Source: Roseateles violae
Lineage (GTDB): Bacteria > Pseudomonadota > Gammaproteobacteria > Burkholderiales > Burkholderiaceae_C
NCBI RefSeq assembly: GCF_030410485.1
Contig: NZ_JAUHHC010000003.1
Coordinates: 1 to 64,000 of the forward strand
Length of the DNA stretch: 64,000 nucleotides
Direction of reading: 5' to 3'
Shown here: positions 47,626-50,172 of the stretch, one piece after another
Layout: each line of letters opens with the position of its first letter
How positions within the stretch are numbered: position 1 is the first letter of the stretch
Translations under genes and position numbers: made by a program
Notes under the pieces: model-generated
The model's input: only the letters and a program-made list of their open reading frames with translations
Databases searched by the model: none
What the model was told of the DNA's origin: nothing

Positions 47626-48531
47626 TCAGCTATTGCGCTCGACGACCATATCGGCCAGCAGACCCAGCCAGGCGGTGTCGGTCAGGCCGCTGGCGGCCAG
47701 CGCGCGGTGCGCCTGGTCGCGCAGCTGATCGGCCAGGCGGCCGGCCGCCTCCAGGCCCAGCACCGAGACGTAGGTCGGCTTGTTGGCATCCTGGTCCTTG
47801 CCGGCGGTCTTGCCGAGCACGGCCGAGTCCTGGGTCACGTCGAGGATGTCGTCGACGACCTGGAAGGCCAGGCCCAGGGCCGCGCCGTAGTCGGACAGCG
47901 CGGCCGTCGCCTTCGCATCGGCCGGCCCGCAGGCCGCGCCCATCAGCACGCTGGCCTGCAAGAGCACGCCGGTCTTGCGGCGGTGCATATCGCGCAAGGT
48001 CGCCTCGTCCAGCTGCTTGCCGACGCTGGCCAGATCGATCGCCTGGCCGCCGGCCATGCCGTCATAGCCGGCCGAGCGGGCGAGCAGTGCGCACAGCCGC
48101 GCCTGCAGCGCCGGCTCGACGCCGGTCTCCGGTGTCAGCACCTCGAAGGCCAGCGCCTGCATCGCATCGCCGGCCAGCATCGCCACCGCCTCGCCGAAGG
48201 CGACATGGGTGGTCGGCTTGCCGCGGCGCAGCACATCGTCGTCCATGCAGGGCATGTCGTCGTGCACCAGCGAATAGGCATGGATCAGCTCGACCGCACA
48301 GGCCGCGCGCATCGCCGCCTCGGTGTGGCCATGGACCGCCTCGCAGGCAGCCAGCACCAGCAGCGGGCGCAGGCGCTTGCCGCCGCCGAGCACCGCATAG
48401 CGCATCGCTTCGCCGAGGCCGGCCGGCGCACCGGCCGGCACGAAGCCGTCCAGGGCGATCTCAAAAGCAGCGAGCGAGCGCTGCCTCCATTGTTCGAACA
48501 CGCCAGAATCCACGCTCAGGAGGCCTCCCAT
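47626..48531 (-). CDS. ispA: Farnesyl diphosphate synthase (polyprenyl synthetase family)
   Basis: A 301-residue prenyltransferase making farnesyl diphosphate. Aspartate-rich motif FARM is [17 protein letters not shown], and SARM is [28 protein letters not shown] and GGQAIDLAS are also typical. The chain-length region before FARM suits C15. Two starts compete: the ATG at 48531 (overlapping xseB by 16 bp, GAAGGG upstream) and a GTG at 48513, two bases after the xseB stop with GGAGG upstream. It is co-transcribed with xseB and dxs. Confidence 0.93.
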
Positions 48532-48776
48532 GGTTTCAACCCTTCGCCGTCCAGCACCTTGACTTGTTGTTCTACGGCCTGCAAACGGTCGCGACAGAAT
48601 CCCAGCAGTTCTGCCCCGCGTCTGTAACTCTCGAGTAACTGATCCAGCGGCAGGTTTTGACCTTCCATGGCCGCGACAAGACGCTCCAGCTCTTCGAGTG
48701 CGTGCTCGTAGCTGCTTGGGGCTGCGGCATCCTTCGATGCCGTCTTGGCGGTGCTGCTGGTTCTGCTCATCGACAT
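48516..48776 (-). CDS. xseB: Exodeoxyribonuclease VII small subunit
   Basis: An 86-residue helical protein, the small subunit of exonuclease VII. The family core is [44 protein letters not shown], ending [16 protein letters not shown] Ser/Thr/Ala-rich N-terminal stretch of about 20 residues comes first; starts at 48776 and 48770 are both possible. A -10-like TACAAT (48796-48791 on the minus strand) lies only about 15 bp upstream of the ATG, so the leader of the xseB-ispA-dxs operon may be very short. xseA is not in the window. Confidence 0.92.
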
Positions 48777-48945
48777 ACGCGAAAACGACAATTGTATCCA
48801 GCCGGTCCGCGCCCGATGTTTCCTCGCCGCCACGGGAAATAGGAACAGGCGTCTTGACAAGCGGCCGGCCCGGCAACGGCGACCTGGGTACAATCCCGCC
48901 CTCATGCCCGACGCATCCGATGGTGCTGCGCCGGGTCCGCCACGA

Positions 48946-48977
48946 GCCCGGCCGGAACGTTCCTTGCCGGGCTTTTT
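48946..48977 (+). terminator. Terminator in the leader of the Rieske oxygenase gene (attenuator or small-RNA end)
   Basis: A perfect 7-bp stem GCCCGGC (48946-48952) / GCCGGGC (48966-48972) encloses GGAAC-GTTCC and is followed by five T (48973-48977). It points toward the Rieske gene, but no plus-strand gene lies upstream, since xseB diverges. The transcript it ends must therefore start within 48780-48930; a -10-like TACAAT stands at 48889-48894. The Rieske start codon is 77 bp beyond the T tract. Confidence 0.65.
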
Positions 48978-49053
48978 GACACAAACCCGGTCTCGTGCCC
49001 ATCAGCAACGGTCCGGGGGGTTGACATTGGTTTCTGGAAAGAGCCCTTGGATC

Positions 49054-50172
49054 ATGTCCGACCTGAGCATCACTCTCTCAGCCCTCGAACGCAGCCAGAC
49101 CCAGCTGCCCGTCAGTTCCTACTTCGATGAGGACCTGTTCCGTCGCGAACAGGCGCAGATCTTCCAGCGCGGCCCGCGCTATCTCGGCCATGCGCTGGCC
49201 GTGCCCGAGGTCGGCGACTACTACGCGCTGCCCCAGGAGGGCGAGGGCCGCGCGCTGGTGCGCACGCCGCAGGGCATCGAGCTGATCTCCAATGTCTGCC
49301 GGCATCGCCAGGCGCTGATGCTGCGCGGTCGCGGCCAGGTCGGCGCCTCGCGCAGCCATATCGTCTGCCCGCTGCACCGCTGGACCTATGACCTGAAGGG
49401 CGAGCTGGTCGGCGCCCCGCATTTCGAGCAGGACCCCTGCCTGAACCTGAACCGTTACAAGCTGCAGCAATGGAACGGCCTGCTGTTCGAGGACAACGGC
49501 CACGACGTCGCCGCCGAGCTGGCGCGGCTGGGCCCGCGCGCCGAGTTGAGCTTCGACGGCTATGTGCTGGATAAGGTCCAGGTGCACGAGTGCAACTACA
49601 ACTGGAAGACCTTCATCGAGGTCTATCTGGAGGACTACCACGTCGGCCCCTTCCACCCGGGCCTGGGCCAGTTCGTCACCTGCGAGGACCTCAGCTGGGA
49701 ATTCGGCCGCCACCATTCGGTGCAGACGGTGGGCGTGCACAAGGAGCTGGCCAAGCCCGGCTCGGCCGTGTACCGGCGCTGGCACGAGCAGCTGCTGCGC
49801 TTCCGCGACGGCGCCCCGCCCGAGCAGGGCGCGATCTGGCTGACCTATTACCCGCACATCATGGTCGAGTGGTACCCGCATGTGCTGGTCGTCTCGACCC
49901 TGTTCCCCAAGGGCCCGCAACAGACGACCAATATCGTCGAGTTCTACTACCCCGAGGAAATCGCCGCCTTCGAGCGCGACTTCGTCGAGGCGCACCAGGC
50001 CGCCTATATGGAGACCTGCGTCGAAGACGACGAGATCGCCGAGCGCATGGACCTCGGCCGCCGCGCGCTGCTGGAGCGCGGCGACAACGAGGTCGGCCCC
50101 TACCAGAGCCCGATGGAAGACGGCATGCAGCATTTCCACGAGTGGTATCGCCGCGAGGTGGCGTTGCCTTAG
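49054..50172 (+). CDS. Rieske [2Fe-2S] aromatic-ring-hydroxylating oxygenase alpha-subunit type
   Basis: A 372-residue non-heme iron oxygenase. The Rieske cluster ligands are C82-x-H84 (NVCRHR) and C105-x2-H108 (VCPLHRW). The catalytic iron site reads EDYHVGPFHPGL, with His196 and His201 as two histidine ligands; the acidic third ligand is probably in the C-terminal CVEDDEIAERMD part. The bridging aspartate of this class would be D194. Substrate unknown. It diverges from xseB-ispA-dxs, a linkage I know from many Burkholderiales, so a housekeeping role, perhaps with an isoprenoid-derived compound, is more likely than catabolism. No ferredoxin or reductase gene is adjacent. The ATG at 49054 is preferred. 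Confidence 0.85.
   Translation: MSDLSITLSALERSQTQLPVSSYFDEDLFRREQAQIFQRGPRYLGHALAVPEVGDYYALPQEGEGRALVRTPQGIELISNVCRHRQALMLRGRGQVGASRSHIVCPLHRWTYDLKGELVGAPHFEQDPCLNLNRYKLQQWNGLLFEDNGHDVAAELARLGPRAELSFDGYVLDKVQVHECNYNWKTFIEVYLEDYHVGPFHPGLGQFVTCEDLSWEFGRHHSVQTVGVHKELAKPGSAVYRRWHEQLLRFRDGAPPEQGAIWLTYYPHIMVEWYPHVLVVSTLFPKGPQQTTNIVEFYYPEEIAAFERDFVEAHQAAYMETCVEDDEIAERMDLGRRALLERGDNEVGPYQSPMEDGMQHFHEWYRREVALP

Follow-up and report, generated by a model that had tools for sequence, protein, structure and literature searches.

A predicted promoter-proximal terminator in the leader of a Rieske oxygenase gene of Roseateles violae and its recurrence across Burkholderiales

The oxygenase locus and the elements of its leader

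The window analyzed here, a stretch of 64,000 nucleotides of Roseateles violae DNA (contig NZ_JAUHHC010000003.1, positions 1 to 64,000), includes an intergenic region flanked by two divergent genes, xseB (minus strand, start at 48776) and a Rieske oxygenase gene (plus strand, start at 49054). Beyond xseB, the genes ispA (PF00348) and then dxs (PF13292) are also encoded on the minus strand. Thus, in agreement with the preliminary description, no plus-strand gene ends just upstream of the hairpin considered below, and the possibility that this hairpin is the 3' terminator of such a gene is ruled out by the minus-strand orientation of xseB, ispA and dxs. A match to xseB is present in 145 of the 151 genomes of the family, and the oxygenase has one match per genome in 172 of the 200 genomes of the order (Burkholderiales). 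The closest PDB match of the oxygenase is carnitine monooxygenase (E 3e-16), which is not a close relative, and no NCBIfam equivalog is found above cut-off for this protein. As judged from its sequence, it is an uncharacterised, almost universal gene of the order. The features of the locus are as follows.

48516–48776, minus strand: xseB, exonuclease VII small subunit (PF02609), the divergent neighbour
48889–48894, plus strand: -10 box TACAAT, the top -10 score in the leader
48906–48936, plus strand: 5' hairpin of the predicted leader RNA (fold of 48902–48980)
48930–48952, plus strand: alternative hairpin of the upstream GCCGGG with the terminator 5' arm, which would be the antiterminator (-14.3 kcal/mol)
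48944–48974, plus strand: predicted terminator stem-loop P1 (-20.4 kcal/mol, z = -3.7)
48973–48977, plus strand: U-tract TTTTT, predicted from the sequence as the 3' end of a short RNA
48978–49017, plus strand: conserved GACACAAACCCGG and predicted second hairpin P2 (fold)
49018–49053, plus strand: conserved pre-start segment GGGTTGACATTGGTTTC...GGATC, ribosome-binding region included, near-invariant in the near clade (A3)
49054–50172, plus strand: Rieske/ring-hydroxylating oxygenase alpha-type gene (PF00848, 1e-39; PF00355, 2e-10)

The P1 hairpin (GAGCCCGGCcGGAacguUCCuuGCCGGGCUU) is not equalled in stability by any of 200 shuffles and, together with the TTTTT that follows, it is oriented toward the oxygenase gene, which bears out the earlier observation of a strong hairpin with five T pointing in this direction. 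A simple terminator scan with a 3–8 nt loop rule misses P1 because of that loop limit. The TACAAT box previously noted ahead of the hairpin is likewise in place, with a -10 score of 9.1 (vs. 4.5 for the next best box downstream in the window leader), giving a predicted transcript start at about 48901–48902 and a predicted terminated RNA of ~76 nt with its 3' end near 48977. No sigma-70 type -35 box is found at the correct spacing (a TTGACA is present, but 29 nt ahead of the -10), and the -35 of the window promoter is poor.

The conservation of the hairpin in close relatives, on which the preliminary description had made its interpretation depend, was found, with the paired arm AGCCCGG being kept. 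Five of these leaders (L086, L087, L091, L095, and L012) share the string CCGGGCTTTTTGACACAAACCCGG without any change and retain the P1 arms AGCCCGG...CCGGGCTTTTT, and their P1 loop ranges in length from about 5 nt (L086) to about 83 nt (over 80 in L095 and L012). By inspection, the closing arms are also kept around an enlarged loop in L114 and L115. At the place of the 5' hairpin (48906–48936), the closest relatives have a hairpin of other sequence. In the near clade, few parts of the leader ahead of P2 are as well conserved as the U-tract and its flank. In two other leaders (L083 and L105), the ACACAAACCCGG flank is present without a good stem, so that this flank may have a second role. The U-tract string CTTTTTGACACAAACCCGG (with at most 2 mismatches) occurs at one site in 6 of the 7 genomes searched, and GGGGGTTGACATTGGTTTC, without mismatch, at one site in each of the seven, which makes the leader element a feature of one gene rather than a dispersed element.

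Downstream of the U-tract, P2 would be formed by pairing of the ACACAAACCCGG flank, through CCCGG (48986–48990), with CCGGG (49013–49017), and 94.5% of its pair cells are kept in 11 close relatives. Since these pairs are mostly invariant and hardly vary, they provide no covariation support for P2; alignment-based covariation is not significant for either P1 or P2, the stems of close relatives being invariant.

Recurrence of the promoter-terminator arrangement

A total of 154 distinct orthologous leaders were gathered from genome contigs and whole genomes, of which 130 have a strong -10 (TACAAT, TAGAAT, TATAAT or TAAAAT) located 45–230 nt before the ATG, with GGGTACAATC or TAGAAT/TATAAT/TAAAAT at this place. 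A strict terminator was defined as a single stem-loop with an energy of at most -10 kcal/mol and a d'Aubenton-type tail score of at least 3.3, no closer than 30 nt to the ATG. Such a terminator is predicted between the -10 and the start codon in 43 of the 130 leaders vs. 59 of 1300 dinucleotide-preserving shuffles (4.5%), and in only one of the 130 segments when they are read on the other strand. The relatives in this set are not independent of one another, and similar leaders were clustered with one representative each; 24 of the 94 representatives have a terminator, as compared with 4.5 +/- 2.2 in shuffles (maximum of 9 in 40 trials). Within 464 kb of the same genome, a comparable rule is passed by 3 of the 84 directional leaders of divergent regions and by 12 of the 46 convergent gene ends. 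Thus, terminators are as frequent in the oxygenase leader as at genuine gene ends. Chance is excluded for the leader set as a whole, though not for single species. The strict terminator is absent in two thirds of the leaders, including a Roseateles/Pelomonas subgroup (L006, L007, L009, L010, and L013) and the more distant L117–L127.

The succession of a promoter and a (predicted) terminator before the oxygenase gene, as originally proposed for the window, is supported by the fact that other genera and families have kept it. The Acidovorax stem begins about 5–7 nt past the predicted start site, and its inner pairs vary (CTAG/CTAG, CTCA/TGAG, CTAC/GTAG); RNAalifold applied to the Acidovorax set yields no double change. 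In a representative of another family of the order (L129), the distance between terminator and ATG is 24 nt, and L133 has the same arms by inspection. The proximity of the stem to the start site is itself recurrent: 28 of the 130 leaders, as compared with 24 of 1300 shuffles, have a stem that begins no more than 17 nt past the -10, and in those 28 leaders the distance from the predicted transcript start to the stem is about 10 nt or less.

As a separate observation, a Pelomonas/Roseateles group (L006, L007, L009, L010, L011, and L013) has another conserved leader, ACCTAGCAACCTGGCCGACTCGG...CCGAGATGCGCCGGAGGGACGCAGCACC, which is without a terminator except in L011.

Proposed attenuation and the competing interpretations

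Overall, we consider it probable that P1 and its U-tract form an intrinsic attenuator that acts in cis on the oxygenase gene from a position close to the promoter, with termination itself being a prediction from the sequence. According to this model, transcription would start near 48902, and RNA polymerase would soon reach P1 and the U-tract, where some initiations would release an RNA of ~76 nt ending near 48977. Polymerases reading through would produce the mRNA of the oxygenase; the conserved part of its leader beyond the U-tract, comprising P2 and the pre-start segment, would then serve translation. The cell would probably make mostly short dead-end RNAs. Termination in vivo, its efficiency and a regulated readthrough are all three what we infer from these patterns.

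The evidence for attenuation comes from the arrangement of the leaders. In all 43 terminator leaders, -10-like boxes between the U-tract and the ATG score no higher than 6.0 (the main boxes having a median of 9.0), so that expression of the oxygenase presumably depends on readthrough and the terminator would act as a cis attenuator. The properties expected of an attenuator were found, namely: (i) a -10 that precedes the terminator, with no further one before the gene, as far as predicted start sites go; (ii) a stable stem-loop directly before a U-tract on the strand of the gene, with pronounced strand specificity (43 vs. 1); and (iii) recurrence upstream of orthologues above expectation. Fixed attenuators need no mutually exclusive antiterminator. 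The preliminary description had left a choice between an attenuator and a small RNA: the attenuator side is favoured by the lack of a second -10 in all 43 leaders, and the small RNA side is weakened by the RNA upstream of the stem not being conserved in sequence.

In the 28 leaders with a stem near the start, the RNA ahead of the stem is too short to hold a riboswitch, a leader peptide or an antiterminator. When stem and start site are this close together, we infer that any regulation acts via the promoter or via RNA polymerase and its factors, unless the terminator is a fixed throttle. For P1 as well, a signal acting on RNA polymerase near the promoter, or a fixed throttle, is more likely than a sensor RNA upstream of the stem; action near the promoter is favoured because many relatives leave no more than ~10 nt between the start site and the stem. 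Candidate inputs on RNA polymerase near the promoter would include elongation factors, pausing, nucleotide levels, and a promoter-loaded antiterminator. A more far-reaching and rather doubtful version of this idea is that many Burkholderiales place a terminator within the first about 10–50 nt, have no upstream sensor, and rely on promoter-loaded antitermination or pausing, with released RNAs of about 26–50 nt. If true, such terminated RNAs may be lost by ordinary RNA-seq libraries.

Among the alternatives, the hairpin could be a 5' structural element of the mRNA that contributes to stability or to insulation of the start region, with no appreciable termination. Stems at the very 5' end are generally known to stabilise mRNAs, and several species have U-tracts of only 4–6 U, some leaders having none. 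A stabilising stem, however, does not need the strand-specific U-tract (43 vs. 1), and the near-clade conservation of the U-tract and its flank described above also speaks against this reading, which we regard as unlikely.

Alternatively, the terminated RNA may itself be the product, i.e., a trans-acting sRNA of ~76 nt, with the oxygenase being expressed via leakage or an unrecognised promoter. A promoter, a hairpin, and a U-tail are indeed the parts of an Hfq-type sRNA gene, and terminated leaders can act in trans, as described for GraL and the rnk-leader in PMC2965389. Nevertheless, the RNA upstream of the U-tract varies in sequence and length even among near relatives, with lengths of about 63 to 115 nt in these and about 26–50 nt in many others; there is no conserved RNA body and, therefore, no shared seed. 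Together with the lack of an Rfam match and of a separate oxygenase promoter (0/43 leaders with a -10 after the terminator), this renders a trans-acting product improbable.

A classical switching attenuator or riboswitch, in which the GC-rich segment 48904–48943 would be an antiterminator under ligand or protein control, appears very improbable. The preliminary description had suggested that the GC-rich sequence could pair alternatively with the stem and had proposed folding the leader in search of a competing antiterminator. Such a mutually exclusive hairpin does exist in the window (48930–48952, -14.3 kcal/mol), and the near clade also has a 5' hairpin ahead of P1. The competing pairing is, however, not found in near relatives, which have 2–4 arm pairs vs. 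7 in the window, and this antiterminator candidate was rejected as a window-only, non-conserved structure. Similarly, ACCCGG (48985–48990) was rejected as an antiterminator acting via the 3' arm, being transcribed only after the termination point; segments 3' of the U-tract have no effect on termination because they are not yet transcribed. No conserved aptamer-like sequence or Rfam family speaks for a switch, and the 28 leaders mentioned above have no room for one upstream of the stem. The Rfam 15 covariance models gave no match at gathering score in the window or in 29 related loci; the best sub-threshold score was 25.8 bits vs. 52 for gathering, and the sub-threshold hits to Scr3202 and D12-methyl, far under gathering, were taken as chance. 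With respect to a ribosome-mediated attenuator, no conserved short leader ORF was found, the ATG at 48904 being absent in aligned relatives, and the 50-codon leader frame has no Pfam match. A leaderless leader peptide or an N-terminal extension from this ATG, which is in the oxygenase frame, was rejected on account of the same non-conservation.

That P1 arose by chance, or that it protects ispA-xseB against stray antisense transcription from the plus strand and has no part in oxygenase control, is hardly credible, even though 3 of 84 other directional leaders in the genome pass a comparable rule, given the recurrence in relatives far above shuffles and the reverse strand and the placement of the terminator just after, not before, the promoter.

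At the level of translation, a start-codon-sequestering helix (GGUUGACAU with AUGUCCGACC and lineage variants) is drawn by the full fold; it was rejected, being no better than in shuffled leaders or with swapped starts, and it beats these controls only in L125/L126. In these two loci, the leader can pair over ~19 bp with the oxygenase coding start (about -24 to -25 kcal/mol). Comamonadaceae-type loci (L113–L200, L026–L080) keep ATGTCTGATTTAAGTCTTCAACTGCAG, including a rare TTA codon, at the oxygenase start, and the leader GGGGAGTCTTTAGGTCAGG before it almost letter for letter; this near-identity suggests a constraint at the nucleic-acid level across the start codon.

Relation to known systems

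Predicted 5' terminators and transcription attenuators have been ranked by gene family by Naville and Gautheret (2010; PMC2965389), and the oxygenase leader quite likely belongs to the 5'-terminator attenuators of the type catalogued in that survey. The features in common, as far as described there, are a terminator between the promoter and the start codon, its recurrence per gene family, and a fast-changing leader, whereas the window leader differs in that no conserved antiterminator or sensor was found in it. The main text of the survey contains no mention of Rieske, dioxygenase or hydroxylating. Among the examples in the same source, the greA leader (GraL) and the rnk-leader have terminators inside the leader that give short RNAs before the gene, and the oxygenase leader resembles them in its (predicted) intra-leader terminators leading to short RNAs. 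In contrast, the account given in PMC2965389 ascribes a clear antiterminator structure to both, and trans effects to GraL. The oxygenase leader further differs from both in the frequent placement of the stem right at the start site and in a short RNA whose sequence is not conserved. This stem-at-start-site arrangement in many relatives is its unusual trait. Phage lambda also has a terminator placed after a promoter without the need for an RNA sensor between them: at PR'-tR', with the antiterminator Q, the outcome depends on polymerase being modified at the promoter. The likeness to the oxygenase leader is purely an analogy; no antiterminator protein or binding element was found at the oxygenase locus. 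A literature search on the oxygenase leader, on xseB-ispA-Rieske or on a Bordetella counterpart returned nothing specific in the main texts of the papers searched.

This analysis marks an unstudied oxygenase, carried by most sampled genomes of the order, as being under probable transcription attenuation. It also provides a comparative set in which the stem sequence and the loop length change while the promoter-stem-U-tract-gene arrangement persists. A stem placed almost on the start site raises the question of how readthrough could be controlled without an upstream RNA long enough to sense.

Two minor observations concern individual leaders. In L129 and L133, two tandem terminator-like hairpins are present, the second just ahead of the ribosome-binding site, for which bprE of Bordetella pertussis, a 70–80 nt RNA in a divergent region (PMC3110155), is a possible comparison. 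L128 and L132 have GGTCGGAGGGACGCA in common upstream of the oxygenase.
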